Shown here one piece after another: positions 7,731 to 58,194 of a DNA stretch of 64,000 nt. A program made the position numbers and the translations under genes. Source of the DNA: Sthenelais limicola (lineage: Eukaryota > Annelida > Polychaeta > Phyllodocida > Sigalionidae); assembly GCA_942159475.1 (NCBI GenBank), contig OW804098.1, forward strand, positions 6,238,383-6,302,382, in the 5' to 3' direction. Positions within the stretch are counted from its first letter, which is position 1. Every line of letters starts with the position of its first letter. The notes under the pieces were generated by a model. It searched no databases. It worked only from the letters and a program-made list of their open reading frames with translations, and was not told the origin of the DNA.

Positions 7731-10700
7731 ATGGGGACTAACTCTTCGTGGGACAATTTTATCCAAGGTGAGTAAAATATAGATAATATCGCATGATTTC
7801 GTGTAACTGTAGTGAGAAAAGAAGCGCCTTCGATTGAAGTGATGAAACTCTGTGTGCTTCTTTTTACGTTTTTAGTCAAAAACGGTCGATTTAGTTTCCA
7901 CCATAGCGATAATGTGATCACTTTCCGTACGGTGTAGACTGTAGTAATAAGACTAATTTAAAGTTAAACACCTTCCACTAAACCGTCCCTCACACATCCC
8001 TTGTGTCGATTGGGCTTAATGAAGCTATGCCTACAAGCTACTGGGGAAAAGCTGTCAAAACAAACCAAAAGAGTTGGCATTCGCACTACAAAATTACGAT
8101 TTCCCGTCCCAACATTGTTGTACCAACTTAAGCCTTTACTTTAGGGACTGTTTTCTTTAATTACTGGAGGGAGGGGAGAATTTCGGGGGGGGGGGGATCT
8201 TTTTTTTTGCATAGACTCTTAAAGTGTGTGTGTAGGAGGGTGAGCCATCTTTTTTTGCACAGACTAAGAACTATGATGGAGGGGTGGGGGTAGGGGGTCA
8301 TGAGATTTTGAGTACCCAGACGCTTCGGCCCAAAACCGTGTCGGCCCAGGCACTTGGGCCTCGTCGGTAGACCACGTCGGCCCACTAGTTAAATATAAAG
8401 GTATCAACTAAAAACTAGGCGTCAGGATGCTAGTGGGGTATAACTACTGCCTATACTGACCTAGGCTACTGCCTATACTGACCTAGGCTACTGCCTATAC
8501 TGACCTAGGACTACACATTTAAGGTTAGGTTTAGGGTTATAGTTAGCATCGGTATCTTGCGGGTGGGCGGATACAGTTTTGGAGGTGGGCCGACAGGGTG
8601 CACAGGTGGGCCGACGGGGCTTGGGCCGACGCGGTGTTGGGCCGACGTGTCTATGATTTGAAATTTTGCACAAACTTCCATTGGGGGGGGGGGGGCAAAA
8701 CATTTTGCACAAGACTTTAAGGGGGGGACATACAATTTTGCACAAGAATCTTTTAGTTTGTTTAGTTATTCACAACCATGCATGTGCAGCCCCCGCTAAT
8801 GGCTTTCCCCACCCTGATGAGATTCTAATAGCATTTTCCGGTTTGGAGCGAAATGCTTTCCCTGAGTTTGGAGGGGCTCTCTCAACTCTGAGCCTGGACT
8901 GAACGTTTTAAAAGGAAGATTATAAGTCTAGATTTTACACAGAGGCTTTAGTTTACAATTGATCTTTTTAGATTGATGTTATCATCAATCTAAATGGATT
9001 GGGGTGAGATCTGTCAATCATTGATAGCATCTTGGCTCCGCCCATCCTGGATATCAGTGTGAAGAATCTGTTGATTCTGATATCAGCAGATGGGATCAGA
9101 ATCATGCTGGTAATGGCTGGGAGGGGGAGGGGATGGCGTTTAGGTGTGAATTAAAGGGTAGACCATGTGTGAATTAAAGTGGCAAGTTGCGAAATAAGAT
9201 GCCTCATATGCAAAGGTGTTAAAGGGACCAACAGAATCACATGGAATGACCAGTCATATATGGGATAGGGATTTCATGTTTTCTGTCTCCACTTCCTCTC
9301 CCTCCTACTATCCCTCCCTCTCGAGCTTTACATTTAACTGACATCAATCTCCGTTTCCCTTGGAAACGCAATCTTCTACATGAACTGGAAATAAATAAAT
9401 AAATGTAAACTGATCACTGTTAACTATTTCTTTTTTATTTATTTTCTCACCAACAGGGGAGCTGTTGTGCACGGGGCTAGTGTCAGGCGTTGCTCTGCTC
9501 ACACATCAGGGACAATGCGTCTACACTTATGGCGTCATCCCAAGCGATGCGCCATCTGTAAGTACAGTCAATTTTACTAATGATACAAAATGTTTGTCAC
9601 TTATAAAACTTCAAAATAATGTTAGACACGCATTTTCCTGGATATTGATGCGATATGTGTGATTTCCCTTTGTCTGGTGTACGTTCTTTAGAAAAGTCTT
9701 AATTGTGAGTTAGATTTCCGTATCTTTTGGGGGCAGCACTTATTACGAAAGTAATACTAAAAATAGGCGTTTGTTGCCAAGCTATAATATATATACCATA
9801 TTATGGTTTCTAAGTGGGAATGAATATAAATGTCAATATGCTCCAACTCTATATAGGTATATATTTGTCCCATAAGAAACTCCTCTTATTATCTACCTCT
9901 AAAATTAAAATTGGTGAAGGCGAATTGTAGTTGTAGTGTAACATTTTCTGGCCACTTCACTCACAATTGGACCCCTCTTCCCTCCCAGTCATTAGACTGA
10001 AAGAAGAACTCGTTATGAGCCGAAGTAGAAATAGTCTGGCGAAATAAAATAATAAACAAGATTTTCAACCTTTCTCTGGCAGGACACATGGCACCAGTTT
10101 CGGGGTGTGTTTGAGCGAGCTACAGAGAGACACAATAAGAAGGTGTGCAATGCAGGGTTCTCCCTCCCCCACACTGACTCCAGCCCCCAACACTACACAG
10201 TAGTGCGCAAAAACCTCTCCAGGTTAGTCTCACTCACTGGTCGAGATTTCAGACAATTTTTGTTTTGGATTCTTATTTGGGTCAAGTTTTCAGAAGATGT
10301 ACAATTGACATTCACCAATCCCCTCAAATAACCCAAATTTAGGATGAAACTTAGGTTCAAAATACAGTTCCACATAACCAGAAAGATTTATTGAATGAAT
10401 GAATACAATACGGAATACACTCTGATATTGTCAGTATTTATCATTTTTCACCCTAATTTAGCGGAATTTGAGAGATGTGTAAAATTTTAAATTGTGCATT
10501 TTCTGAAAATCTGACCCCTTTGGACCTGCAGGGCCTTGAAGTACGTGTTCGAAATTTGGATTCATTAACAAAAAATTCTTGCACTTTTGCCCTCAGTGTC
10601 TCTAGTCTAACTTAAACTTTGAAGTTCTGTTCTGGTAAGCGGCCATTTTGGTCAAGGGGTCTTGAAAATCGCCAAATGGGCCTTGAGAATCCAGTTAGAA

Positions 10701-12531: not shown

Positions 12532-15200
12532 TTGTGTGTCGCTGGATCTCTTCCAGGCTTAAAATGCTAGTAGAGTTGTAATAATGATATGATTGTGATC
12601 GTATACGTTACTTCTGCAGGAATTAACTATGCTTCTCCGGAGTAGACAAGTAATAGGGAAATACTTTATGAGTTCCCTTGGTCGTCCTCCTCATGTCATG
12701 AGGCTGGGGTCCTTACTTCCCCAGCCTGGCATGCACGGGACATGTTATAAAAAAATGTTTTTAACATTTTTTTATAAAATTTCTTTAATAACTTGTTAAG
12801 GTTAAAACCTAAAAAACCGAAATGGCTGAATTAGAAAAGATACCTCTCCGCATTGTATAAATAGCATAATAAGTCAGGACATGATGAAAATCACAATTAT
12901 ATCAGTATTTTTGTGAATATTGTAACTGTCTGTTTACCTGAATAAATCTGTCCAAAAAAAAATATAAACTTCGAGAGATACATCGAAGTGTTTGTATTAC
13001 AAAACAGGAATATATAAATAAATATAATGAGTAAATAATTATAACCCTCTTCATAAATTAGAGTAGTATATGATAAGTAAGATGGTCGAACTCCGGAATG
13101 TGTAACATAAACTGATAATTAGTTATAAAATAATGAATAATATAATATAGAGAGAAAATGGAACGAGCCGGCAATAATCAAAGATTTATTGGACGAGATT
13201 CGTCCGCATAAGCAGTTCATATAGTACGCATACTATATGAATATTTTCATAGCACCTCTATGGAATTCGCATATAATAAAATATAATATAAGCTGTGAAT
13301 AGCAGCACTCCTGGGCATGCTCTACCACTAAATTATTGTAAAATTATACTTAGATATCTATAAATTGGCAATAAATAACGGAGATTGACCGACACAAACT
13401 CTTACTAAAGTGTTTCTGATTTTATCAAGCAAATTCCCCCGCCCAGGCCATAGTTGGGCCTGGCGCATAGAGCGTATAATAGAGACTGAGAGAGTCGATA
13501 GCTCTCTGCCTGCCGCTAACTCTCGCGCCACCTGGTGTGTGTTTATGTTACCAGTGACTCCACCTGGTGAGCGTTCATCGTTCTACCTCACGACATACCA
13601 GGCGTTGTGTCAACTCTTAAAAGTAAATAGTGTAATAAAAAGCATTTTGTCTTAGGTTGTGTATTCTCCTCCAAACAGATCATCATGATTGCCATTGTTT
13701 ATTATTTTTAAGGATTTTCTACTTGTAAAATTGCATGTGCTGTATTGCTCAATTTAAGTAGTAATACCCACGAGACTTTTTTTATACTACTCACTTATAT
13801 GTTTTTGTTTTGCTTTTATTTATCTCATTTCATTTCCTAACTTACCTAGATTATATATGCTGCTTGTAAGATTATGTATTCCTGCTCATTTTCTAGAAAT
13901 AATGTATTTTATTTCGACTCTCTTATTCCGATGTTGTGTTATATATCTCTATGCTATTTATTTCCCATTCACTACGCTGTACTTTATTTCGACCCTTTTA
14001 TTAAATATTATATCTTTTATTTACTGGGTCTTGTCAAAGTTTAAAAAATGAGAAAAATAATGGACAACTCTACGTCATATCAAAATGTAATTATCAGTTG
14101 ATATGTGAGTGCATGATGTATTGCCTGAACAGGTTGCTCACAACCTTGCCTCTTGTTTATTTCCATTGATGTCGTAATGTCAACTTGGGCTGTACTGCTC
14201 AAGTCACATAGAAATGCACATAAGAGCTCTCTATATTATTCACCCACATGTTCTATTTACTTGTGTTTATCTTTGATTTTTCTTCTTTTTTTTTTCTAAT
14301 CCACTTACATTATATATTTAACATATCTTCCAAATTTTGGTAACAACCGGAAGAAATGGTACCTCGCTGTATCATAAAGGCATGTCGACCAATTTGTCAA
14401 TTTATGTAGTTACTCGTTTATACTCTTCTGTACTCATCGAAAATGGCAAATAAAAAACAACTTATCTTATGTTGAATGTAGCCCCGTTATGGAATGAATA
14501 CGGAATTTGTCTGATTATTTACGAATCTTTAGGAAACTATGGAAAGCTATGGAATATGCGCACAGCATATGTGCCGGGTTTCAGGGAAATTATCTATGTT
14601 TTCACTAAATTATCATGGATCGAGTGTTTTACTTATAAAACAGAAATCATAACAATATTATGTTAATGTTCGGTTGTTTACGATTTTTAAATTTAACAAC
14701 GAAACTAAAAGACCAGGACATGTCTAATGATTACAAGTTTCGACATTAGAAATCAAAGTTTTATAACTGATAAGGTATATAGAGCTATCAGTCAGGGGTC
14801 AGGGCGTTGTTAGGCGATATCAAATTTACTCTCTGACTGACCTGATTGTGATAATGCAACTTGTAAATACATAACCACAATGAACCGTGAACCAGTTGTC
14901 CACCACCGCTACGCAGACATTAAATAAATCAGGTCTTTCCGTGGTTATAGTCCAAGCGTTCCGTGGTTATACATAATCCACGCTCAATATCATTAAGCAA
15001 TGCGGAATTTCGGGAGGAAGGAGAAAATTCAGACGGAGTAAGACAGGGAAGGAAGAGCAGCCGATCAAAAAAGTGTATCGTAGAGTGAAAGAGGTCGAGG
15101 AGGAGGTTTGTATAACGTTTCTGAGCATTCTGATGTCACTGTGTACACGTATAGGCTATATCTGTACCCGTCTGTATGAACAGACTTATAACTTATTCAG
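12532..15200. other. AT-rich intergenic stretch, no gene supported
   Basis: I see only short open frames. The region holds a half copy of the 23483 palindrome (13155-13245) and a GC-richer patch at 13430-13590 with CCACCTGGTG repeated. An exon-like stretch at about 14999-15107 is noted under rejected items. It may contain the missing 5' exon of the J-domain/NACHT gene, but no candidate has matching splice phase. Confidence 0.5.
13155..13245. repeat. Half copy of palindromic element seen at 23383-23617
   Basis: ATGGAACGAGCC, CAATAATCAAAGATTTATTG and GATTCGTCC match one arm of the palindrome at 23483-23617. It is followed by the palindrome TTCATATAGTACGCATACTA then TATGAA, which also occurs near 23386. 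Confidence 0.6.
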
Positions 15201-15209
15201 GGGGTATAT

Positions 15210-15452
15210 GAGTCAGACTTTCAGAAAATGTATAATTGGGAGCTCTACAGTGTAACACATTTAGGAAATTCTGCTAAATTAGGCTGAAAAATGATGAATA
15301 CCAGGTATATTTGAGTATAATTGGTATCAGGTTGATTCAAAATATCCGTTCTGTTGTGTTAAACTCCATTTTAAAGCTCATTTTTGTCTTAAATGTGGGT
15401 TATTTGAGAGGATTGGTGAAGGAGAATTGTACATTCTCTGAAAATCTGACCC
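15210..15452 (-). repeat. Family A MITE, core variant 1
   Basis: First of three closely spaced copies. It is followed by a unique block (GCTACCACTTTGCTAAACAC) that recurs after the copy ending at 16097, so this cluster arose by segmental duplication of MITE plus flank. Confidence 0.8.
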
Positions 15453-15655
15453 ATATAAGACCCGTTTTCGTGCTGCTACCACTTTGCTAAACACTAATGG
15501 GCGTTTTCGCAGAGCGGGTCACATATATATTGGGGTCAGGTCAGTCACATATATTGGGGTCATGTCGGAATGTGTATTAAATTCTGCTACGGTACTAGAA
15601 TAGGCTGACAAAATGATAAATAATGTATAGGCAGAATATGTATCTGTATAATTAT

Positions 15656-15898
15656 GGGTCAGATTTTCGGAAAATGTACAATTCAACTTCGTCAATCTTC
15701 TCAAATAACCCAAATTTCAGACGAAAATAAAGTTCAAAATACAGTTCAACCTAACCAAACCTAACCAAACATTGCTAGAATCAATGCAATGCCGAATATA
15801 CTTGAATTTACCTAGTATTGACCAAATTGCAGCCTGATTTAGCAGAACTTACTAAAAGTGTAGAGCTGCCAATTGTACATTTTCTGAAAATCTGACCC
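15656..15898 (+). repeat. Family A MITE, core variant 2
   Basis: Variant 2 core: AAACATTGCTAGAATCAATG and GCCGAATATACTTG, with ATTGACCAAATTGCAGCC. Two copies of CCTAACCAAA lie side by side inside. Both terminal repeats are present. Confidence 0.8.
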
Positions 15899-16097
15899 AT
15901 TTAGGAAATTCTGCTAAATTAGGCTGAAAAATGATAAATACCAGGTATATTTGAGTATATTTGGTATTAAGTTGATACAAAGCATCCGTTCTGTTATGTT
16001 AAACTGCATTTTGAAGCTCATTTTTGTCTTATAATAAATGTGGGTTATTTGTGAGAATTGGTGAAGATGAATTGTACATTCTCTGAAAATCTGACCC
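15899..16097 (-). repeat. Family A MITE, variant 1, left end missing
   Basis: It begins directly at ATTTAGGAAATTCTGC, where the preceding copy ends, so the two share or lost one terminal repeat. The right terminal repeat is intact (CTCTGAAAATCTGACCC). Confidence 0.75.
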
Positions 16098-16243
16098 ATT
16101 TTTTAGCTGCTACCACTTTGCTAAACACTAATGGGTGTTTTCGCAGAGCGGGTCACATATATTGGGGTCAGGTCGGCAGCTCTAAATATGTATTTAATTC
16201 TGCTACGGTACTAGAACAGGCTGACAAATGATAAATAATATAT

Positions 16244-16482
16244 GGGTCAGATTTTCAGAAAATGTACAATTGGCGATTCTACACATTTAGTAAATTCTGC
16301 AAAATTAGGCTGCAATTTGGTCAATACTAGGTAAATTCAAGTATATTTTGGCATTGCATTGATTCTAGCAATCTCTTTGGTTAGGTTAAACATCATTTTA
16401 AACAACTTTATTTTTGTCTGAAATGTGGGTTATTTGAGAGGATAGGTGAATATGAATTGTACTTTTTCTGTAAATCTGACCC
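16244..16482 (-). repeat. Family A MITE, core variant 2
   Basis: The core matches variant 2 in reverse (GCATTGATTCTAGCAATCTC). Both terminal repeats are present. The preceding flank repeats the block found before 15656. Confidence 0.8.
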
Positions 16483-17205
16483 ATAGAGGCAGAATATGTA
16501 TCCGTATATTTGACATACGTGTGGAGCGCGGTATGGTAAATTATTTCTAGAAGCATTTTTGGTAGTTGGTACTTTTTATATGTTGGCTGGAACTACATAA
16601 AAGGGTACGTACTGTACCATACACAATCTTTATCAATTTCATGTATCAATTTTATTTCCAATATTCACGGTTACATCATTCTTTTTGGAAAAAGGGAGAA
16701 GCACTCCACAAATCACTTCATTATACATCCTTCTGAGAAAGGCTATGTTTCTCAGGTCTTCCAGGCATCCCTGAGTTTGTGTTTACATTAATCTTCATTT
16801 GATAACCCATCTCTATTTCATGAATATAGTGTCAAGAATTAGGATTTCTCCAAAAACCTACCCTCCATTATATCCTCCTTGTGGCCTAGACATTCCTTCT
16901 TTCTCAATTTGTTTCTTAATTATATAATACTCCCTATTTCTTTGGTTATTTTGGAATGAAATCATTTTTTATATTAAGGGAGAGCTGTTTTTGAGAGGTA
17001 ATAGGTAAGGGTTCTTAACAAAATTAGATATGCTGGGACAACCAACCTGCAGTTCAGCATTATTTCATGCAGTTGAGATTGATTTATTGGTAAAATGTTG
17101 TATTGTCATAGCAAACAGTTTTATATCGATATATTATTTTTATTCATTTTTTGGAGAGTGATCTGATTACTTTACGTTCTGCTATACATGTACACTGATG
17201 ACTGG

Positions 17206-17238
17206 TTCCGGCTCTGATCCTACATCCCGACAAGAATC
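17206..17238 (+). pseudogene. Fragment of the J-domain exon
   Basis: CTCTGATCCTACATCCCGAC followed by AAGAA is identical to the J-domain exon around 20996-21022. GTTCCGG lies on its left, as in the exon but with 7 bp missing between. A stop follows soon after. It is too short to function and looks like a partial duplicate or a paralogue remnant 3.8 kb upstream of the real exon. Confidence 0.6.
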
Positions 17239-17431
17239 TCTCTAGAACAGGGAAATTTCTTAATTTCTAAATTCACTGGAAAAATCATTTTCATCAAGAG
17301 GTTGATTAATGTCTAGAACTATCTATTTATATACTATACTTTTGCCTATATGATATGCATGATACTGTGCAAACTAAGTACTTGTTTTATTTAGTATCAT
17401 TTCTGTGTGACCAAGTTGTATATAGTATATG

Positions 17432-17490
17432 TAAATGTGGGTTATTTGAGGGTATTGGTGAAGGAGTATTGTACATTTTCTGAAAACTTG
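17432..17490 (-). repeat. Family A fragment (right end only)
   Basis: About 60 bp of the F-end half: GTGGGTTATTTGAGGGTATT, then GGTGAAGG and the start of the terminal repeat. Confidence 0.6.
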
Positions 17491-17603
17491 ATCTTGATTC
17501 CACAATCATTCTTGAGGCTTTTTGCCATCTGAAGTTAGAGTCTAACGGTTCTGACATAGGACCCATAATACATAATTATCCCACCAATATTTCTTTGAAA
17601 GTA

Positions 17604-17829
17604 AAGGGTGGTCTCCAATGGCTGCGGTAAGCTCTGCGGTAAGCTCTGCGGTAAGCTCTGCGGTAAGCCTTGCGATGGTTTGTGCTGGTTCTGTAGCTGG
17701 AGAGGAATGACGAGGTCCTGCCTACATGGTTCACTGGCCATGTAGGCAGGACCTCATCACTTCTCACCATCACAACACCATCACAAGGCTTACCGCAGAA
17801 CTTACAGCAGCCAGTGGAGACCACACTTA
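17604..17829. repeat. Foldback element (family C copy 2) with expanded 12-bp repeat
   Basis: Ends AAGGGTGGTCTCCAATGGCT and its reverse complement. The left arm has four tandem copies of GGTAAGCTCTGC or close variants; the right arm and copy 1 have one or two. The inner palindrome CTACATGGTTCACTGGCCAT then GTAGG forms the hairpin tip. Confidence 0.7.
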
Positions 17830-18169
17830 TGTCTACATTCTGGCATTTACTATTGCAGCTAAATGGCGAGCAAGGATCCCTTTGCAGGGAAAAGACAAGT
17901 AGAAAGTAGGGTTGAGCGGCAGAAATCCGAGATACAGCGGTAAGAGTTTTAACATTTAATTCAGCTTTAATACATGAAGGCACTAGATAGTGTCAAGGTG
18001 GTCAATGTCATGTTCAATGAGTTCTTGTGTTTTATTCTATTGCCTGAATTATCCTGTATAATGTGCCATGACCAGGATGAGTGAGTAAGTGAGTTTGGTT
18101 GATTTATGCCCTTATCAACACATTTAAGATGGTTATATCAAGGGCGGGAGTGCTAAGAGGGAGGCAGTT

Positions 18170-18550
18170 TATGATCATACCCAGGAAATAGAGACAGCTA
18201 GAGAAAAAGGAAGAGAGGGTGGCACTTTATTGTCATACCCAGGAAATAGAGATAGAGAAGAATGGAGAGAGAGACAGAGAAAAAGAGACAGAAAGGCACT
18301 TTATTGTCATACCCAGGAAATAGAGATAGAGAAGAAGGGAGAGAGAGACAGAGAAAAAGAGAGAGAAAGGCACTTTATGGTCATACCCAGGAAATAGAGA
18401 TAGAGAAGAAGGGAGAGAGAGACAGAGAAAAGAGACAGAAAGGCACTTTATGGTCATACCCAGGAAATAGAGATAGAGAAGAAGCGAGAGAGAGAGAGAC
18501 AGAGAAAAAGAGACAGAAAGGCACTTCATGGTCATACCCAGAACCATGAC
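18170..18550 (+). repeat. Minisatellite, about 74-bp unit, about five copies
   Basis: Units begin GGCACTTTAT at 18221, 18295, 18369 and 18442 and GGCACTTCAT at 18520. Each continues TGTCATACCCAGGAAATAGA (or a G variant) and then a GA-rich stretch. The long open frames on both strands are a by-product of the repeat. Confidence 0.85.
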
Positions 18551-18650
18551 CAGGATGAGGTTGTGGTACTAAGATAGTTAGACAATGCAGCCTGGAGAGC
18601 TTAGTTAGTAGAGCACCAGAGATGTAATGAATGATGCATTTGTACATATA

Positions 18651-18871
18651 AGTCAGATTTTCGGAAAATGTACAATTGGCAGCTGTACACCTTTAGTAAA
18701 TTCTGCAAACTTGGTCAATACTAGATAAATTCAAGTATATTTGGCATTGCATTGATTCTAGCAATCTTTTTGGTTAGGTTCAACTGCATTTGGACTTTAT
18801 TTTCGTCTGAAATTTGGGTTATTTGAGAGGATTGGTGAAGTTGAATTGTACATTTTCTGAAAATTTTACCC
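18651..18871 (-). repeat. Family A MITE, core variant 2
   Basis: Variant 2 core in reverse (GCATTGATTCTAGCAATCTT). The right terminal repeat has decayed to AAAATTTTACCC. Confidence 0.75.
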
Positions 18872-19904
18872 TTATGTTTGCACTAGCAACAGGTTCAAAC
18901 TCATTATTTCTTCGGGGATGTTGCAATATCACACGTTTTTATTTCATCGGAGGACCGATTGTGAGTTGTTTCCGCACAACTGCAAAACTGCACAATCAGC
19001 AGGCAGTTCAGCATTGTTTCATGCAGTAGGAGTCAAATATGCTAAAAACCAAGTATACTTGAAACTAACATATCACTGATATTTGGGTTTCTCCTCTATC
19101 CAAAGTCATCTCTAAAGACGAATTATCTCTAAATATGAGTTTTGCAGGTTTTTGTATGTGTTTTTAACAATTTCAGTGATTTTGGTGGAGGTTGCATTAT
19201 ATACCGTTACAACTGAAATAGTTCCCATTTCTGTCAATTTTATATTCATTGCATTAGGTTCAACAGTGCTGAGTGCCTAGCTGTGTCCATTTGCCTTCAA
19301 TTTGTAGTCTTTTTTTATGTTTTCGTTCGTCTGACTTTGATCTAATATTTGTTCTATTGGATAAATCACCATTATTTATTTAACAAAATATTTTTTTAAC
19401 AAAATTTTATTGACAAATATTTCACAGTTTGTGATACATTTCAATTCGCCAACTATGAGATTCAAACAAAACAATTTCTTTACATTACCGTCACGTTTAC
19501 AATATACTTTGTCCTCTTCATGATAAGACCCAGTTTTTAATTTGTATCGAAGTAAGGTGGGTCGCTTGCATATCTTTTGCCCGGGTTGTTGAATCAAAGA
19601 TATGGTAAAGGATTGGAAAAAAACCCTTACTATTAGTTTGGTTATTTGTATTAATCACTAGCTCTCGGGCTATGGTGTGCCCTTCATCAGTTTATAATTT
19701 GTTCCTATTAATACATAAACTAATATCTATTTCTATAATTTGTATCGACTCCCGTTTTTTACAGGATTTTTGAGTGATTTATGCAAAAGACCTGTTTGTT
19801 ATAATGTTCTCTTCATTTGGCTGCTTAGCGCTGATTGTAGCATAAATACAATGAACTAAATTTCAAGACAGTGTATTAAATATATGCATGCATTTCTGTG
19901 GCCA
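18872..19904. other. AT-rich intergenic stretch, no gene supported
   Basis: No exon with recognisable coding content. GCAGTTCAGCATTGTTTCAT at about 19003 also occurs with one change at about 17051, again hinting at duplication between this segment and 17.0-17.3 kb. Confidence 0.45.
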
Positions 19905-20140
19905 TGCTATAGAGTAAATTTAGCTAATTTACCACCCAGAAATATTGCTAACTTCTTTTTTTTTTCAAAAATAAAAATTTCAAACGTAAAATATAGAAAT
20001 ACTCACTAGATATCCTAATGTTTACTATCATTGGAATCCACTTGATCTCATCTTTTCAAATATGATGATATGACAAAATCCATTTTTTGCTATTTGTGAC
20101 CCATTCTCCTGTAACACATCACATATATCATTGAAATGAC
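19905..20140 (+). repeat. Dispersed repeat, copy 2 (pair with 1870-2115)
   Basis: Same order of blocks as copy 1, including CTTGATCTCATCTTTTCAAA then TATGATGATAT. It lies directly before a family A copy. Confidence 0.55.
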
Positions 20141-20156
20141 ATGTTCAGCAATATGT

Positions 20157-20371
20157 GGGTCAGATTTTCAGAAAATGTAGCATTCACCTTCACCAATCAT
20201 CTCAAATAACCCAAATTTAAACAAAAATCAGGTTCAAAATACAGTTCAACATAACCAGAGAGATTTATTCAATGAATACAATACAGAATACACTCAAATA
20301 TACTCAGTATATATACTCTTCTTGAGAGATGTGTAGAACTGTAGATTTTGCATTTTCTGAAAATCTGACCC
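20157..20371 (+). repeat. Family A MITE, core variant 3
   Basis: Shares the variant 3 core (AGAGATTTATTCAATGAATA) with the copy at 10279. First of three family A copies in 740 bp. Confidence 0.8.
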
Positions 20372-20407
20372 ATGTAAAGGGTCAGATTTTTTAAAAATTA
20401 ATGTACT

Positions 20408-20646
20408 GGGTCAGATCTTCAGAAAATGTACAATTCGCCTTCTTTAATTCTCTCAAATAACCAACATTTAAAGCAGAAATGAGCTTCAAAATGCAGTTTA
20501 ACATAACAGAACAAATAATTATTATGAATCAACACGACACCAAATATACTCAGATATTCCAGGTATCCATCATTTTTCAACCTAATTGAGCAAGATTTCC
20601 TAAATTTGTAGAGCTGCCAATTGTGCATTTCCCGAAAATCTGACCC
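20408..20646 (+). repeat. Family A MITE, core variant 1
   Basis: Complete, with left end GGGTCAGATCTTCAGAAAAT and right end ATTTCCCGAAAATCTGACCC. Confidence 0.8.
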
Positions 20647-20667
20647 CTGTACAGTGTGTATGTAAAT

Positions 20668-20893
20668 GGGTCAGATTTTCAGAAAATGTACAATTGGCAG
20701 CTGTACACATTTAGTAAATTAGGCTGCAATTTGGTCAATACTAGGTAAATTCGAGTATATTTCGGCATTGCATTGATTCTAGCAATCTGTTTAGTTAGGT
20801 TGAACTGTATTTTGAACTTTATTTTCGTTTGAAATTTGGGTTATTTGAGAGGATTGGTGAAGGCGAATTGTACATTTTCTGAAAATCTGACCC
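20668..20893 (-). repeat. Family A MITE, core variant 2
   Basis: Complete. Its right end lies 15 bp before the splice acceptor of the J-domain exon, so the acceptor's upstream sequence was supplied partly by the element. Confidence 0.8.
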
Positions 20894-20908
20894 AATAACG
20901 TGTTGCAG

Positions 20909-23900
20909 CATCCTCACGTCCCGCAGTGACTCCGATATTCTCGCGTTACCATACGGCGCCACCGAGAAACAGCTGAGACGCCAGTTCCGGAGACTGGCTC
21001 TGATCCTACATCCCGACAAGAACAAACACCCGGGGGCAGAGCAAGCATTCAAGGGTCAGTTTGTATTTCTTCTATTTATAACTGCATTCCTTGCTCAAAT
21101 CATCCAAGAGTTATGTATAGGGGATGCTTTCTTATGAAGTGGGTGAGTTCGCTAGATAATGTACAATTTGCCTTCACCACATCTTCTCAAATAACCCAGA
21201 TTAAAATGAAAATAAGATTAAAAGCTATACTATGATATAACCAAACAGATGTTTTAAATCATTTTGTAATTGACATGTATCAATAATTTTATCAGGATTT
21301 AATTGTTGTTTCTCTCATTGTTAATCGTTTAATAATGTAACCATCTATTCCGTAAAAAAAACTCCATTTGTCTATGAATTTCTGATAGGAAGCATGCTGA
21401 TGGACAGGTTGTTTGGGAAATCACAGTTTATGCTTGGTTCATGCTTGGTTCATGCTTTACTGATACAAGACAAAACCTTTAACAAAACTTTAAAACAATG
21501 CAAAGTTATAATGAAAAACACCAAAGCTGTAATAAAGACAAATAGAGGATAAGATTATGCTTTAGGATGGTTTATTCAATAGAATACCAACGTTTCGGAG
21601 CTTACATTACTCCTTCTTCAGAATATAATTTTAAGACTTTAAAAACATGAATGTTGTCCGATGGACATTGTTGAAATAAGTGTGAAATTGGTCTTTTCCA
21701 GCTCTAGCCAATGCCTTCCAACACCTCACAAGTGGTACAGCAACAGGTGGGTTTATCCATATTTCATGGAAATCAATCTTCATTTGGGTCAGATGTTCAG
21801 AAAATGTACAATTAGTAGCTCTACATATTTGGGAAATTCTGCTAAAAGAATTATTAATTATCGGTACATCTGAGTATATTTGGTATTGCATTGATTTAAA
21901 GTATCAGTTCTGTTATGTTAAACTGCATTTTGGAGCTCATTTCTGGCTTAAATGCGGGTTATTTGAGAGGATTGGTGAAGGCGAATTGTACATTTTCTGA
22001 AAATCTGACACATTTACTTCAAGGGACATAAATAGTTTACCTTACCGAATCAATTATTTCCTATCAATACACAGAGACAATGTATGGGAATTATTTAAAA
22101 TACTTTGGGGAAAATGATTATTTTCAATTTCAGCAAAAATGATACTTCATTCATGTTTCTGTTACCTTTGGTAAAACTCTTTAAAATGCTATTAAAATGT
22201 TTCTAACATATACCATATTTCTAATACATAACAAGCAAAGTTGTAAACTCTGATCGAATGCTTTAACAGTTGCAAAAGAAACCGTGAATAAATCGGTTAG
22301 AAGATGTGTAATGATAACACCCAAACTTGTAATATAACAAGAATTAGTTAACAGTGATTAGTTTACATTTATTTATTTCCGGTTCATACAGAAGTTTGCG
22401 TTTCTAAGGGAAACGAATATTGATGTCAGTTAAATGTAAAGTTCGAGTGGGAGGGATAGTAGGAGGGAGAGGAAGGGGAGACAGAAAACATGAAATCCCT
22501 ATCCCATATATGACTGGTCACTCCCCTGTAATTCTGTTGGTCCCTTTAACACCTTTGCATATGAGGCATCTTACTTCTCAACTTGCCACTTTAATTCACA
22601 CATGGTCTACCCTTTAATTCACACCTAAACGCCATCCCCTCCCCCCCCCCCCCCAGCCATTACCAGCATGTTTCTGATCCCATCTGTTGATATCAGAATC
22701 AACAGATTCTTCACACTGATATCCAGGATGGGAGGAACCAAGATGCTATCAATGATTGACAGACATCACCCCAATCTATTCAGATTAATGTTATCTCATC
22801 AATCTAAAAAACAAAAATGACCTAGGACTTGAATTTGAGTGGGGCTTTTATTTGAGTCCAATGAGGTTTGGTACATTTTCACTCCAGGTGAAATTTAGTC
22901 TAAAAAAGAATATTAGCCAAACATACTTTTGCTAGGAAATGAATGAGACTAAAGGTAACAATATCGTTTGCCCTGGAAGAGACTTGCGGGAGACATTGAC
23001 GAGTTTATAGAGATGTAACAATAGTATTGTATTCTTCCACTGGTCATCCTTAATGTTTTTAAATCCTTTTGTTGCATCTAATCATACTTCTTTTAATTAT
23101 GTCTTAAAATTGTAAGAGCGCAGATGGCAGGTATTTGAATAAAGTCTGTTGCAAAAAAAAAAAAAAAAAAAAGAAAAAAGGTAACAATACTTGCACAACT
23201 TATTTCAGAATACTCGGTGCCTGGAAGCTATGGTGACGATGATGATTGGGAGGATTACTGGCCTGGTGAAGACATACTTGAAGGTACACATTGTGGTTAA
23301 CATTCTTATTCTCATTAAACATAAAACATCATTATTATATGTGCATTCCATATAAGATGTGCTATAAGTGGGGTGCTATAAAGATATTCATATAGTACCC
23401 ATACTATATGAACTACTTTGTCACCAACTCCACATTTGTTGCCACATTTATGCACAAGTTTCATGCCCATGTACTAAATATAGAATGGAACTCGCCTGCA
23501 ATAATCGAAAGATTTATTGGACTTGATTCGTCCACATAAGCACTCTGCCTAGGCATTGTGCTTATGTGGACGAATCTTGTCCAATAAATTTTTGATTATT
23601 GCCAGCTCGTTCCATTCTCTCTATTTATATCAGTCTATGCATCACAACATGTACAATTCGCCTCCATCAATGCTCGTAAATAGCCAAATTGCGAGAATCC
23701 AACGTATACTTTCATATCCCTATTCAGTATTTACTGATTAACAGAATGCCTCTTCTATTTCAGCTGTAGAAAGGCACCATCAACTGCTGTCTAGAAACAT
23801 CATGCAAGTCTTCATTCCATACATAGGCAATGGAGTCCATATAGACCTGGCCCACAATTTCGTTACTACTTCAATCCTAGTGAACCCTATAGATTGCTTC

Positions 23901-26900
23901 AGACCGTGAGTGATGTTAATCCCTCTTTAGGTGAAACATATGGTACTAAAGTATAACTAAAGAACATATTATAGGTGAGACAGTCATTATGGCCCTACCT
24001 GTGATTGGACAGGTGCGAGCCAATGAGCAACCCACACCTGGTCAGTTGGTAAAGAACTGCCTTAAAGGTAACATATTCTGGTATAGAAAAATGAAAAATG
24101 AATAATATAAGCTAGTATAGGCATACATATATATGACATAATAAGGTATAACAATATCGAACAGATTAGAATGCTGATTAATGTCTCATATCAGAATGAA
24201 TTTCCTTTTTTTCAGGGTGCGACTTGTGATAGCCAATTCAGACATGTTCGCCCCATTTAGGGATTATAGATGCACCACATTCCTGATATCTGGCCCAGTA
24301 GGTAGTGGAAAGAGTTGCCTCATCCGAGGATTCATTTACAATAAATGCCAAGAACCCTGGAAAATCAGGGACAAACTCCACGTGTTCCTAGAAGCAAGGG
24401 ACATCACTACAGATGGTGTATGGAAGGCTATAGAAAGAAGCTTGATGGGTCCACGCAAACAAATACTTTACAAACATTTGGAAAGAGTTGACAAAATAAT
24501 CAAAAAAATATATGTCTTTATTGATGGTGTAGAGGAAGTGAAAGACGAAGCAATAAATAAAACAATAGACAACTTTGTCTCTGAAGCGCGAAGGTATACT
24601 CACCCAACGGTACTTGTTACCACGCGAGTGAAGTTGGGTGAAATATCAAAGATGAATTTTGACAAATTTATGGAAACTGCTGGATATTCTGTAGAAGAAG
24701 GTCTGGCATATGTCAAGAAATACTGTGAGAAACACAAGGAAAAGCATGAAGTTGAGAAGTTTGTTGAGTACTTGGAGTCCAAGAGTGTGAGCAGTGAGAA
24801 CATGCAAGCCATAGTAAAGGACCCCATGAGGCTATATATACTATGCTCTCTTGTTTTCATGCACACTGGAGAGGAAGGCATTGAGATCAGCAACATAGAA
24901 AAGATGTCCTTGACCAGCATTTACAAGAAATTGGACATTACCATATGCAGAAGAGGATTCAGGCTATCACAAGAAGAACAACTAGCTGATGATGTCCATG
25001 AAAGGATCAATTCCTTCTGTAAAATGCTTGTTGTGCCAGGCTTAACGAGGGAAATATCTATCACCGATTCTCTGTTCACAAAGTTTGGACTCACTCTCGA
25101 ATTTCCTCTTGTTCAACTTATCGATAGAGATATAGAGAATTATTTTGCCCCTGTATTTGAATGGTTTTACGATCGTCCAAAGAAGCATTTTCATCACCAA
25201 TGGATGGCAAGAGGTGTGTTCTGCATGACAGCTCCTGTACAAATACTAGTGCTGTTTTTTATGTGTTCTGATGCAAAGTTCCACAATCCTAACCTACTGT
25301 TCTTTGGATGTGTGTCTGACGATGATGCAGTTTTAGACAAAGAAGCCAAGATTTCCTTACTAACAGATATGGTGAGATGGCAACTGATCATGTGGCCACA
25401 CAAGGATAAGTCCCCCACAGATGAACCCTATAAATCATTGAGGAAAGCATGTTTTGCTCTTGCAGCAAAAATAAACGATTCGTTGTTCTCACTCTCGTAT
25501 TTTTCTAATAAAGGGATAACTGACCTGGCAAATGGCAAATGTTCTGAAGCATTGACAAAGGAGGCAGAAAGTCTGTTTGAACAAATCCAGCAGATGTTTG
25601 GTGAAGTGGATACCACAGGGGATAAAACAACATGGTTCAAAGGCACCATCGTAGAGCTGGATGGTTCCTTGGATGGTGTTGGGAAGCTTGTACATGACTG
25701 CCTGCAGGAACTGGCTGAGGACATCCGGGCAACAGTGGCCAACAGAACAATCGGTGCACTCACACCTTGTTGTTCTGTGAACCCAAGGTAAGCTATCCTG
25801 GGTGTCAAAGTAGAATCAAAGTGTGTCAAAGTCCTCCTGGGTGTCCAAGTAGAATAAGAATAAGGTAATGAAAGCATTTTTGTGGATCCTCAAAATAATT
25901 GAATTATTTTGTGTTGCTTCATGTTATTTTGTGCTCCTGGGAAGGGAAATGTGTATACCATATATACCCGTGTATAAGCCAGACCCCGTTTATAAGCCCA
26001 CCCCGTTTATAAGCCGGGGGTTCAGCACTTCATAACGTTAATATAAGCCGGGTCCCGTTTATAAGCCGGGTGCCTGTAGGGAAATGTAAGATAGTCTTAA
26101 AATGATGAAGAGATTGACCAGAATTAGCACTTACTGGACGATGAATAATAGTTTAAATGATAGAAATAAGTTGTCGTTGATTGATTGTGAATTTTGGTAG
26201 TTTGTTTCCATTCAATTGAAGTTTAAAACATGAAAAAAAAGCACTGAATGAACGTCACAATAAAAATGAGTTTCAGCTAAATCAGTTATTGAAATATAAG
26301 CCAGGCCCCGAATATAAGCCCACCCCAAATATAAGCCGGGTCAATTCACCATTTGAAATTAATATAAGCCGGGGCTTATACACGGGTATATACGGTATAC
26401 CAGCAAAGGCCAACACTATTATTTTGCATCCTGGAGCGTTTTAATTGGGTTTCCTCAAATAAATGAAACGGAATGGATCATTTTATGTTCATTATGCGGT
26501 TTCCCCAAATATGATTTAATATATTTATTGTATGTAAGGGTGACTAAAAACCTTTTTTCAGCAGTTGTAGGAGGTTGGTGGTTCCAACCACGTTCACTAT
26601 ATGCGTCAGATCTTCCGAAAATGTACAATTCGCCTTCACCAATCCTCTCAAATAATCCAAATTTAAGAGAAAAATGAGGCTTCAAAATTCAGTTTAACAT
26701 AACAGAACAGATACTTTAAATCAATACAATTCCAAATATACTCAGATATACCCGGTATTCAACATTTTTCAGTCCAAATTACCAAAATTTCCTAATTGTG
26801 TAGAGCTGCCAATTGTACATTTTCTGAAAGTCTGACCCATATATATGTTCTGTATCCTTATGCTGTTTTTTCGCACTTTTATTGCAGGAAAGAGAAATGT

Positions 26901-27536
26901 ACTTACTACCACATACCAGATACAGCACGTTGGGGGCATGTGGTATACCCGACAGGTGGCGATGAGGTGCTTATCTCTTCATGGCATCCTACTGATGCTG
27001 TTTACCTACTGGAGCGGTACCAAGCAGCCGGTGCACTCCGGGTACCTAAAGACAAAATTACACTCTCCCATCAGGAATACACTCCTGTCTATGGTTGTGC
27101 ACCTTTGGCATGCTGGAGACAGGAGGAGTATAAGAAGGCCTTGGACCTGCTACCAGCATGTAGGCAACTGTACATGAAGTTAGAGAATACCTGCCCACCA
27201 CACCACACAGAAGCAGGACATGTGCTAGCTGCACTGGAAGCGATTGACTCATACATACAAACCACAGGCCAGGGTAAAGTAAAAGAGAGGGTTGACTTGT
27301 GTGATGGTCATATGTATGTCACAGAGATGAAGCAGCAAAAGGAGCTGCTCAATTCACAGCACATACATGGAGGTACTCGCGTCTGTTTGTGTAACTGCAA
27401 GATTATAGTGGACCAGGAACCTGATGAGGACTCGTTGAGAATGATAAGAGGTTGGGTGAATGGTGGAATCCTGAACATAAGTGCATGGTGGTTGCCTGAC
27501 GGTAGGGAGGTCAGTGATGCCTATAGAGATAAGTGA
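20909..27536 (+). CDS. J-domain plus NACHT-type STAND NTPase fusion, 6 exons seen, 5' end not found
   Basis: Exons 20909-21054, 21702-21746, 23209-23283, 23764-23905, 24216-25787 and 26888-27536 join in frame with GT-AG borders; stop TGA at 27534. This gives about 875 residues without the missing N-terminus. Residues 8-62 (counted from ATC 20910) form a J-domain: ATEKQLRRQFRRLALILHPD with the HPD motif at 34-36. J-domains recruit and stimulate Hsp70. Residues about 155-400 form a NACHT-like NTPase: Walker A GPVGSGKS (162-169), second strand VFLEARD, Walker B VFIDGVEEV (235-243), sensor LVTTR (270-273), then TAGYSVEEGLAYVKKY and DPMRLYILCSLVF, as in NACHT helical regions. The linker is acidic (GDDDDWEDYWPGEDILE). 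About 470 further residues match no family I know, and I see no leucine-rich repeats, WD40 or ankyrin repeats. A STAND-type sensor or switch is a reasonable inference; the role is unknown. The first exon must end in phase 2. Confidence 0.85.
21141..21300 (+). repeat. Family A fragment, F end retained
   Basis: GGGTGAGTTCGCTAGATAAT, then ACAATTTGCCTTCACC and decayed core; the right terminal repeat is lost. It lies in the intron after the J-domain exon. Confidence 0.55.
21786..22011 (-). repeat. Family A MITE, core variant 1
   Basis: Complete, 40 bp after the 45-bp exon at 21702-21746. The right end reads CTGAAAATCTGACAC. Confidence 0.8.
22335..22812 (-). repeat. Family B element, copy 2 (inverted relative to 8955-9432)
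   Basis: Reverse-orientation copy of the 8955-9432 element. It contains the poly-C/G tract at 22637-22655 where copy 1 has a shorter G-rich tract. It lies in an intron of the J-domain/NACHT gene. Confidence 0.7.
22951..23189 (+). mobile_element. Short retroposed insertion with poly(A) tail and 13-bp target duplication
   Basis: The direct repeat AAAGGTAACAATA flanks the insert at 22951-22963 and 23177-23189. The insert (about 210 bp) ends GAATAAAGTCTG and then about twenty A, a poly(A) signal plus tail. The first 50 bp read in one frame as RLPWKRLAGDIDEFIEM then stop, so it may be the 3' end of a LINE or a processed transcript. It ends 20 bp before the acceptor of the 23209 exon. Confidence 0.75.
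23383..23617. repeat. Long palindrome, about 59-bp arms (foldback element)
   Basis: GAATGGAACTCGCCTGCAAT at 23483 pairs with the reverse complement ending at 23617, continuing through ATTTATTGGAC, GATTCGTCCACATAAGCAC and its complement, around a loop of about 17 nt near CTGCCTAGGCATT. Upstream at 23386 is a second palindrome, TTCATATAGTACCCATACTA then TATGAA. The same pair of motifs recurs at 13155-13245. It lies in an intron of the J-domain/NACHT gene. Confidence 0.75.
23645..23692 (+). repeat. Family A fragment
   Basis: ATGTACAATTCGCCTCCATC and the following 20 bp match the F end; the rest is lost. Confidence 0.45.
25955..26400. repeat. TIR element with TATAAGCC repeats
   Basis: The ends are inverted repeats: TATACCATATATACCCGTGT then ATAAGCC on the left, and the reverse complement GGCTTATACACGGGTATATA then CGGTATA on the right. 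About nine TATAAGCC motifs, often followed by GGG or CACCCC, cluster inside both ends. No transposase is seen, so it is non-autonomous. It lies in the last intron of the J-domain/NACHT gene. Confidence 0.8.
26603..26838 (+). repeat. Family A MITE, core variant 1
   Basis: Complete. It ends 50 bp before the last exon of the J-domain/NACHT gene; the open frame read through it into the exon is an artefact of the element lacking stops in that frame. Confidence 0.8.
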
Positions 27537-27575
27537 GAGAAAGTGGATCCAGGAAGATTAGGAACGATTAGATGA

Positions 27576-27581
27576 AATAAA
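27576..27581 (+). terminator. Candidate poly(A) signal of the J-domain/NACHT gene
   Basis: AATAAA 40 bp after the stop codon. A family D element starts immediately after it, so the transcript end may lie in or be formed by the element. Confidence 0.45.
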
Positions 27582-27583
27582 CA

Positions 27584-27931
27584 ATAGGGGAGTTTCATAG
27601 CCGCCATTTTGAATCTTGATTCGCCTGGAATTATGGGACTAGTGGTACAGTTTAAAATCTATATAGATAGAAGACATGCCATGTTCAGCATGGAACATTT
27701 ATGGAAATGCTATAATGTCAATATCCATGTGTTATACATGGTTCCACAACACAAGTTCCCATCTTTCCCATCATGCATTCGGTTTTCACATATTGTTTAT
27801 ACAAGCTAGGATATTGGTGACAAATTCTTGCAACTTTAGATGAGAAAGTATGTCAGATTTCATCAGAATCCATCCCAGAATGCAATGTGACAGACATGCG
27901 CAGTGAGATATGCAACTCCGCTATTATCAAG
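27584..27931 (+). repeat. Family D MITE, copy 1
   Basis: Ends ATAGGGGAGTTTCATAGCCG and GATATGCAACTCCGCTATTA. Shared blocks with 49822-50184: CATAGCCGCCATTTTGAATC, AATGTCAATATCCATGTGTT and GACATGCGCAGTGAGA. Confidence 0.75.
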
Positions 27932-28288
27932 CCAGGGTAGCAGGAACCAGGGTTAGTTTGCGATGAACCAACCACACAATGGATAGTAGTCGGCTATGCC
28001 AAAAATGATACCTGCCATAATTTCTGACCAACCAGGTTCATTAACTCAGTGATGAAGTAGTGAGACCCTTGCAAGGACAACTTCAGAATTATATAGACCA
28101 TGTCAAGAAGGAAACGTTCATCTAAGAAATAAACCACGAATTGGAGCCATGATCACATGTCTAAACATAAATTCGCAAAAGAATTCAACACATCAGTGTA
28201 CTCAGACTGTCCTAAAGTTAAGAACATACTGAGTCTGAAAGATGTCCTGAAGCTAAACTGCAAGATTTGATGGCAATTTGGAGTGGTC

Positions 28289-29110
28289 TTAGGATATTAT
28301 TCTGTATAAATATGGATTGTTTTTCTCATTTTCAATGACACTGCCACACTTGATTGGAATTGATTGATTGATTGATTGATTGGAATTGTTACCTTTATCC
28401 TGTCTAAAGTATCCATACTTAGTTTTTTGAATGCTCTTCATATGAAGGACACTCAAAACCCTTATGCCCCTTCTTACCACATCGGAAACAGTTGGGTGTT
28501 CCATCCTTATTATTCCATACTGGTTTCCCAAACTTAGTACCCTAGGCTTTTGACCCTTTGAACTTGAGCTACTACCTGCCTTATTTGCTTGTTCTCTGGT
28601 TTTGTTTATCTTATATTCCAAAGAGCTCAACCTTTTCAGAATCTTTTCCATTATATCCTCATCTGCTTTGATATTTTCTGGCTGCTTTTGTCCTACTGCC
28701 TCTAAGACTTTCATTACCCCAATTTCCATAGGTTCCTCTTGCCTAATCCCTGCTAGTTGCTTAGACTTGTACAAGTCTTAGAATTTTCTTTGTTTAAAAA
28801 ACTAAAAGTATCATGTTATGGTCACTCCCCCCTTGACTGAGGAATTCCATGGATGGGGAGTCCCAGACCTGCAGTATAGGGCCCTACAAACAACACCAGT
28901 CTTAGGGATGAGGGCTAGTCTACTAGTTGCTCTGCTCTATCTGCATTCTTAGCAGCCTCATATGCAGCATTACGGTTTGCTGGCCTTGCCTGATATACCC
29001 CTTACTCTTACTTCCCTATTAGAAATTCCATCAATGAAAGTACACTCTAGCCTTTCCATTACTAATGACACTGCCTTTTCTGCAGCAGTATAGGCTTTGG
29101 TTACCTTCAC
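28289..29110 (-). pseudogene. Degenerate retrotransposon gag-like fragment with CCHC zinc knuckle
   Basis: Minus-strand reading of 28495-28445 gives CFRCGKKGHKGFEC, a perfect CX2CX4HX4C knuckle, in a different frame from the helical, charged stretch just upstream. Another gag-like stretch (VTKAYTAAEKAV, with VMERLEC) is readable near 29100-29030 with stops after it. Frameshifts and stops show it is dead. The left flank carries a short (TGAT)n run at 28360. Confidence 0.65.
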
Positions 29111-29464
29111 ATTATAACATCACATTATTTATGACAATTTGCTAATTTGGAAGAAATAAACACTATTGAAACAACGCTCCATTTTATTACTATTGGGAAT
29201 ATACTATGTTCACTAATAAAATGACGCACTGACCCAGTTACGTCACTGATAAGGTCGTTAACTCCAAACCATAGATGTAACAACAAACAGGAATGTCCCT
29301 TAAATCAACATGTCCCTGCATGAACTCAAAATAGTGTATAGTTAAATACAATTTAAACTAAACATTTGCCAGGTAATTACAGAACAACATGTTATCTAAA
29401 ATTCTTTCAGACTTACAAATATAATCTTGGAGTGCATGTCACCTTACCAGTTTCAAGCTATGAG

Positions 29465-30300
29465 CTAATGTATGAATTTAAAACTATTACATTTAATATA
29501 TATGGCAATATATATTTCTAACAAGCTATACACCACAGCTAACATTTCCTTTTCTATCTGCGCATAGCGCTGCTCAGTTGGAGTTAGAGCTCTTGAGGCA
29601 TAGGCGACTATGGCTCCATCTTGGATTGTGGCTGCCCCTAATCCCTTACAGCTTGCGTCAGTCAGTAATGGCTTCCAGATGTCAAAGTATCTGAGAACTC
29701 TGTTGGATGACAGTTCTTGCTTTATCATGCTGAATGCTGTCTGATGCTCTAGACCCCAATGCCATTCATCTTGTATTTTCAGCTCTCATAGTGGCACTGT
29801 CAGTTCGCTTAGTTGAGGGATAAATTTTGCGACATAAGCTACCATCCCGAGTATGGTCTCCAGCTCCTTAAACGTCTCTGGGAGGTCTCATGCTTGTTAT
29901 TGCCTTTACTCTGTCCTCTGTTGGTTGGAGACCCTCTCCGCTCCGCATTCTCAGGTTAAGATACCAACGAAACGGTGTGTTAAAGGTTGTTAGGTACAAA
30001 CTCTTCTCCATCAACATAATTTGGAAATAGCCCATGTTAGCACTGAGGGTGGTAAAGTGCTTGCTTCCATGAAGTCACAATATCATCAATATTGCTCATC
30101 GGGAAGTGTTCATGGCGAATGGCTTTATTCAGATCTGTGGGGTCTATAGATATGTGCACTTTGTCTTTGTCCTTCTTACTGACGACAACCATACTGTTGA
30201 CCCATGGCGTTAGCTCTGTCACCTTCTTTATGATTCCGAGCTTCTCCAGCCAGTGGAGCTCTGCCGGGGAGTTCTGCTTTGACTTTGGGCTGAAAATGCC
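29465..30300 (-). pseudogene. Ty3/gypsy-like pol remnant (RT N-terminal part and RNase H, catalytic core deleted)
   Basis: Going down the minus strand: WLEKLGIIKKVTELTPWVNS with DLNKAIRHEHFPM (start of RT), then after a gap EGLQPTEDRVKAI and ELETILGMVAYVAKF (RT thumb), then LLTDASCKGLGAATIQDGAI and SRALTPTEQRYAQIEKEM (RNase H). The palm segment that should hold the YxDD motif is absent, and there are frameshifts and a stop. Order and motifs are those of Ty3/gypsy elements. It is an old, non-functional copy. Confidence 0.8.
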
Positions 30301-42317: not shown

Positions 42318-42319
42318 GG

Positions 42320-54231: not shown

Positions 54232-54255
54232 GCTGATGAAGGTTTTCTTATTAAC

Positions 54256-58170: not shown

Positions 58171-58194
58171 TAAAGACCTCACCCTACACGCAGC

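Follow-up and report, generated by a model that had tools for sequence, protein, structure and literature searches.

In a 64,000-nucleotide stretch of the genome of the polychaete Sthenelais limicola (the window; GenBank assembly GCA_942159475.1, contig OW804098.1, positions 6,238,383 to 6,302,382; C5:6238383-6302382 in our designation), we identified an open gene on the forward strand (17863-27536; seven coding exons, 901 codons from ATG to TGA) that places a J-domain, the part of a protein that recruits the folding helper Hsp70, ahead of a NACHT-type STAND NTPase. The gene belongs to a family in the same genome for which a common layout is predicted with very little doubt: a start exon, the J-domain, two exons encoding Death domains (Death1 and Death2), the NACHT part and a C-terminal domain of 216 amino acids (aa). 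The window copy lacks both Death exons, which brings its J-domain directly before the NACHT part. Taking all of the evidence together, we consider that these genes probably encode NLR-type receptors that incorporate an arm for recruiting Hsp70 and would operate as proposed below.

The whole genome (1.13 Gb in 161 contigs) was searched for relatives, and 20 loci with a J exon were fetched with 10 kb around each, 19 of them from 23 J-exon matches and one from 63 DnaJ matches. Four paralogues (L033, L038, L039, and L047) were built exon by exon, and in all four the exons follow the order of the window gene and agree with it in phase and splice position. Because the paralogues share these features, the following exons belong together and almost certainly form one gene, as modelled here:

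17863-17939, forward strand: exon 0, with the ATG start; 25 codons plus 2 nucleotides (nt); donor CG/GTAAGAG, the slash marking the splice site.
20909-21054, forward strand: exon 1, J-domain helices I and II, the HPD motif, and the beginning of helix III; Pfam DnaJ match.
21702-21746, forward strand: exon 2, the remainder of J-domain helix III, into which the DnaJ match extends; recognised in 10 of the 20 fetched loci.
23209-23283, forward strand: exon 3, a linker of acidic character that has diverged from its counterpart in the paralogues, GNLSxDVDAHKVFEEN...
23764-23905, forward strand: exon 4, a pre-NACHT linker that matches L033, L038, L039, and L047 (4 of the 20 fetched loci).
24216-25787, forward strand: exon 5, the NACHT-type STAND NTPase plus a helical part.
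26888-27536, forward strand: exon 6, the 216-aa C-terminal domain and the stop codon.

All six introns are of the GT-AG type, and exons 0 to 6 join in phase with no internal stop. An initial annotation of this DNA had already joined exons 1 to 6, with the boundaries listed above, into one frame, and this arrangement holds, with five GT-AG introns between the six exons. It had begun the gene with the J exon, but another exon comes before it: exon 0 was found upstream, carries the ATG, and joins in frame. Exon 0 encodes MASKDPFAGKRQVESRVERQKSEIQ, followed by an R that spans the junction with exon 1. Its beginning resembles that of L039 (MASK), its end resembles exon 0 of nine paralogues (EI(A/E)-R, with a CG/GT donor), and it is the sole candidate with CG/GTRAG among seven phase-2 ATG exons found in bases 1-20908 (at least 15 codons, with any of four common donors). 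The acceptor site of exon 1 is kept in eight of the nine paralogues compared, the exception being L047, in which the exon is longer. A counterpart of exon 3 occupies the equivalent position in 8 of the 20 fetched loci, and its phase was verified in the four built paralogues.

The J-domain of the window protein scores 46.8 bits with Pfam DnaJ, for which the curated cut-off is 27.8, and its HPD motif (21009-21017) is located between helices II and III. Both are features of a J-domain protein (Hsp40) of class C and bear out the initial annotation, which had described an HPD-bearing J-domain upstream of the NTPase. The sequence HPDK is invariant in all 20 aligned J exons, that is, those of the window and of 19 fetched loci, the broken array at L048 being excluded. 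By sequence, the closest solved J-domains are those of the DNAJB9/DNAJB1/DNAJB12 type, with which the HPD motif is shared; these proteins are classical co-chaperones without an NTPase. Beyond intact J exons, 27 bases on the forward strand at 17210-17236, some 630 bases ahead of exon 0, match a segment of the J exon (ALILHPDKN) exactly; they are a copy of a J-exon fragment, and no more extended open J frame surrounds them. L048 (G000:C5:95920141-95930140) consists of broken J-exon fragments in tandem, with units of about 125-181 bases and with stops, and is not a gene.

Exon 5 contains a Walker A motif (GPVGSGKS, 24292-24315), a Walker B motif with an acidic pair (VFIDGVEEV, 24514-24540), and a TTR sensor (VTTR), and residues G29, S30, G31, K32, D103, and E107 are invariant across the six rows of alignment A1. 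When compared with Pfam, the window NTPase is below every cut-off (AAA_22 8.8e-4, NPHP3_N 1.9e-3, NACHT 0.04), with the NACHT profile reaching 14.2 bits on the window protein under a curated cut-off of 26.7, so its identity as a NACHT domain is taken from its relatives. Homologues of exon 5 were found at no fewer than 82 places in the genome, itself included (82 scored of 131 candidates), with identities of 43-45% to the 10 nearest others and 23-35% to the remainder of the places listed. Five of the more distant homologues (C5:127018233, C6:10933469, C5:3649453, C5:16654303, and C5:126377050) overlap matches to NACHT (PF05729) above cut-off, as do the spliced paralogues L033 (29.1 bits), L047 (30.7 bits), and L039 (30.4 bits, scanned as a gene model without either Death exon). 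It is through these homologous places and paralogues that the proposed fusion of a J-domain to a NACHT-type STAND NTPase is confirmed; of the two profiles expected in the spliced protein, DnaJ is found in the window protein itself and NACHT in its relatives but not in it. A profile of the NACHT region gave weak and mixed matches in the PDB (KaiC 0.0024, NLRP5 0.0028, Avs2 0.0072, NLRP9 0.1), and a structure predicted from the window sequence by itself had a pLDDT of 35.9. The genome has a very large NACHT repertoire: at least 93 matches to PF05729 are above cut-off (366 candidates, of which 93 were scored); many lie in frames 1000-3000 aa long, and stops occur in some.

Across the genome, 11 of the 63 DnaJ exons, that of the window included, are followed within 60 kb, on their own strand, by a NACHT exon of the set of at least 82 places. 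Within 12 kb the number is 7 of 63, whereas 2000 random placements with the same 12-kb limit averaged 0.03 and never exceeded 1 (contig C3 taken as 150 Mb). Inside the fetched 10 kb, a J exon is followed by a NACHT exon at five of the 20 loci (L033, L034, L038, L039, and L047), and L050 contains a J exon, a Death exon, and a NACHT exon of another type. Two of the four built paralogues have a J-domain, a Death domain, and a STAND NTPase domain, all above their Pfam cut-offs, in one open frame: a single hmmscan gave DnaJ 50.0, Death 23.8, and NACHT 29.1 bits for L033, and DnaJ 42.9, Death 30.9, and NB-ARC 29.2 bits for L038. In L047, DnaJ and NACHT are above cut-off in one hmmscan. The models of L033 and L047 begin at the J exon, and that of L038 stops where the fetched DNA stops. 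Exon 0 of L034, L039, and L040 contains an open, in-frame array of a 105-bp repeat that encodes 35 residues of acidic character (a coding minisatellite). At the other end of the gene, the domain encoded by exon 6 has 58 homologous places in the genome, itself included; it follows each of the 11 closest NACHT exons, that of the window among them, and lies within 15 kb downstream in 44 of the 82 listed NACHT places. Its profile identified no significant relative in the PDB, and the Pfam scan of the window protein contained no LRR or other known C-terminal repeat.

A Death-like exon after exon 3 was identified by tblastn in 14 of the 20 fetched loci, and in most loci the Death signal consists of two neighbouring exons, Death1 and Death2. 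When the genome was searched with Death1, 22 places were found (24 candidates), and each of the 22 follows a J exon on its own strand at a distance of no more than 44 kb. With these places included, Death1 is present in 19 of the 20 fetched J loci, L048 being the exception; Death2 is present in 10 (L033, L034, L036, L038-L042, L046 in two pieces, and L047). Pfam Death has 35 matches in the genome, 17 of which are no more than 50 kb downstream of a J exon. It recognises mostly Death2 (29.9 bits for one such exon alone), and at least one match (C4:32229742) is a Death1 exon. Death1 gives the weaker signal, with a Pfam Death match at E up to 10 in 7 of 12 members (best, 6.3e-8); its profile had seven PDB matches up to E 10, none better than 0.015, to chains of THOC1, PIDD/LRDD, and TNFRSF16, which we take to contain death domains. 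A NACHT exon of the 82-place set is present within 60 kb downstream at 10 of the 22 J-Death1 places, and Death1 is kept between J and NACHT in all 10 of the other J-NACHT pairs.

In the window, the gap between exons 3 and 4, where the two Death exons of the relatives would fall, is 480 bases long. Profile searches that covered bases 15001-30000 in all six frames, with every filter off, gave no match for Death2 and no real one for Death1, whose best score was 2.1 bits and fell within the NACHT exon in a wrong frame; no N-terminal death-fold, TIR, or similar effector was found in the window protein. In each of the four spliced paralogues both Death exons measure 264 nt and have phase 1-1, and because of this phase the window frame survives their loss. 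Having no Death domain before its NACHT, the window copy is not classed with the Death-domain NACHT receptors. The initial annotation had put the J-domain in the effector position, which is correct for the window copy but not for the family, since in the relatives the J-domain stands before the Death domains; a J-domain that replaces the death-fold effector across the family is ruled out by the Death exons. The same annotation had proposed that the J-domain would hard-wire an Hsp70 client switch to the STAND sensor; the HPD motif that such a switch would use is intact in 20 of 20 J exons. In an output role of this kind, the clustered J-domains of oligomerised receptors would recruit Hsp70 as the effector. 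The window copy, where the J-domain is the sole recognised domain before NACHT, would suit this proposal. In 19 of the 20 fetched loci, however, a Death domain, the usual output, is behind the J-domain, which is therefore an addition there, and we regard an output role as improbable.

The J, Death1, and NACHT exons are under purifying selection, as measured by the ratio of nonsynonymous to synonymous substitution rates (dN/dS, Nei-Gojobori). This ratio is mostly 0.15-0.45 for J exons among paralogues and 0.155-0.383 for Death1 (15 pairs); the value of 1.5 for the J exons of L050 and L051 comes with a dS of 0.03 and so has little meaning. In the three pairs among L038, L039, and L047, dN/dS is 0.23-0.25 for the NACHT exon and 0.56-0.80 for the C-terminal exon (incomplete in L038), which thus evolves faster, with dN of 0.12-0.16 versus 0.38-0.43 and aa identity of 73-78% versus 46-52%. 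Between the window gene and its paralogues, dN/dS is 0.26-0.31 for the NACHT exon, at a dS of 1.5-1.8, and 0.36-0.52 for the C-terminal exon.

These ratios bear on the suggestion that the window copy is a decaying gene whose signalling ceased when its Death exons were lost and whose frame stays open only by accident. Consistent with decay, both Death exons are missing, copies of repeats are present in introns 0-1, 2-3, 3-4, and 5-6, and the linker of exon 3 is strongly diverged. Yet the gene has 901 open codons and GT-AG boundaries at every intron despite the high NACHT-exon dS to its relatives, and its dN/dS values in both the NACHT and C-terminal exons also argue against decay, to which we give little credence.

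Identity between L034 and L033 differs greatly along the gene, with 98% for the J exon (dS 0.06), 51% for Death1, and 34% for NACHT; a J exon so similar beside NACHT exons so different indicates that the J module moves between receptors. This swapping of J exons between NACHT clades would also suit a J-domain that is an integrated decoy, through which invaders that bind or modify the host Hsp40/Hsp70 machinery would trip the NACHT switch. Plant NLRs carry integrated domains. In one survey of Fabaceae NLR proteins, a DnaJ conserved site and other DnaJ domains are listed among their InterPro domains (PMC11734081). The invariant HPDK and the low dN/dS of the J exons, in contrast, fit a working module and not a diversifying bait, and J and Death1 occur together in 22 of 22 places; a decoy is in our judgement unlikely. 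The constraint on HPD favours work with Hsp70 over a passive tag.

Hsp70 and Hsp90, together with co-chaperones, help NLRs to fold and remain inactive, and they do so as separate proteins. In the receptors proposed here, the C-terminal domain would sense a ligand or damage, the NACHT part would oligomerise upon nucleotide exchange and so serve as a nucleotide switch, and the Death domains of full members would recruit death or immune adaptors as the output. The J-domain would recruit Hsp70 in cis and stimulate its ATPase through the HPD motif, and Hsp70 would keep the receptor ready but inactive and would set the threshold or dismantle the assembly. Such self-chaperoning, in which Hsp70 acts on the receptor itself, may be the main job of the J-domain; we put this forward tentatively, at somewhat less than an even chance, and rank it ahead of a role as bait and, after that, of clustered J-domains as output. 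The window copy, lacking Death domains, would be a chaperone-bearing regulator or co-sensor of the full members, although we are doubtful that it regulates them. It is conceivable, and in our view no likelier, that a shuffling J module wires Hsp70 into the Death-NACHT switches of several NACHT clades in a whole lineage of animals, with Death-less members as trans-acting, chaperone-only regulators. If a co-chaperone domain is part of the receptor, the effect of Hsp70 on an NLR becomes testable in cis with a single point mutation in HPD, and the Death-less member of the window provides a natural comparison for full members.

Several points weigh against a family of J-bearing, NLR-type receptors as described above. 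The gene model is a prediction from genomic sequence alone, and a full model from ATG to stop was obtained only for L039 (1345 aa). Some domain scores miss their thresholds, with Death in L047 just below cut-off at 21.9 bits and NACHT in L038 at 24.1 bits under 26.7 (its NB-ARC match being above), and Death1 of the closest type has no Pfam match. A J exon is present within 60 kb upstream in only 11 of the 82 listed NACHT places, and among the 10 closest NACHT relatives, eight have an upstream J exon within that distance and two (C5:1064665 and C5:851784) do not. Of the 11 J-NACHT pairs, five are 12-41 kb apart with the intervening DNA read in part. No NACHT exon of the 82-place set is found within 60 kb at 12 of the 22 J-Death1 places; two of these 12 have another NACHT exon (L050 and C6:116856796), and no NACHT exon was found at the remaining ten. 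The dS between the window gene and its paralogues is near saturation, and evolutionary rate is the sole ground for calling the C-terminal domain a sensor, since it has no known relative. Finally, the window copy, with a NACHT exon 42-45% identical to its nearest relatives, could be a still-open relic. The long gaps, the 12 J-Death1 places, and the joining of exons from genomic DNA would all be compatible with J exons that belong to a separate J-domain gene simply located upstream of NACHT genes. We consider this highly improbable: exon 2 completes helix III of the J-domain, exons 0 to 6 are in phase with no stop in both the window gene and L039, and order and strand are common to all 10 other pairs.

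The initial annotation had known of no described family with a J-NACHT layout, and neither the literature, as judged by title or the opening of the abstract, nor the protein databases yielded a J-NACHT or J-Death-NACHT family in animals. Protein-database searches with the whole window protein or its NACHT region gave no match, and a search with alignment A4, which is without Death2, gave only J-domain proteins (10 matches); no relative with both J and NACHT domains was found in these searches, which detect only proteins that share exact five-residue words (7994 candidates scored for the whole protein and 7999 for A4). Scans of viral and prokaryote contigs were unproductive. The family is a variant within the NLR-type receptors, with a layout that is new for animals so far as we found. 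The nearest animal layouts in the texts available are DD-NACHT in amphioxus (PMC2575513) and NLRD in sponges (PMC12909245), which likewise have Death before NACHT and many NACHT genes per genome, whereas a DnaJ or J domain has no occurrence in the main texts of the two papers, supplements apart. In the S. limicola family, unlike in these receptors, a J-domain comes ahead of the Death domains, and the C-terminal domain belongs to no known family. Plant NLRs are NB-ARC-LRR proteins without Death domains. A DnaJ co-chaperone domain is listed in NLR-type proteins of Fabaceae (PMC11734081), whereas here it is part of a multi-copy family with a fixed domain order. Sacsin and its paralogues combine DnaJ with chaperone modules, and some members have Death, but the modules are Hsp90-like, HEPN is present, and NACHT is not mentioned in the available part of the source (PMC3710099). 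Among bacterial conflict systems there is one that encodes HSP70 and has a DnaJ domain fused to another of its components; such systems are bacterial and GTPase-centred, the fusion involves an FNIII-repeat protein, and the likeness is an analogy only (PMC7159879).

The introns and flanks of the window gene contain a number of repeats. A family of short interspersed elements of about 230-250 bases has copies at 20152-20898, 21785-22014, 26598-26844, and elsewhere in the window; 10 bases separate the end of the copy at 20667-20898 from the J exon. In intron 2-3, 480 bases (22331-22810) are 91% identical to an inverted copy at 8965-9439, and a short poly(A)-tailed retrocopy occupies about 22951-23189, with AAAGGTAACAATA repeated at 22951 and 23177 on its flanks (by eye). 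A poly(A) signal that would end a separate gene between the J and NACHT parts was considered for the AATAAA and the A-run near 23138-23173, and was rejected since these terminate this retrocopy. Elsewhere in the window, single open frames on the reverse strand encode a RING/B-box/NHL (TRIM-type) protein (51853-54321) and a protein of the Galactosyl_T family (41148-42368). A reverse-transcriptase (RT) frame followed by a tyrosine-recombinase-like frame just below the Pfam cut-off is located on the forward strand at 58174-61725, presumably as a DIRS-like element, and a second RT fragment is present on the reverse strand at 4406-5308.

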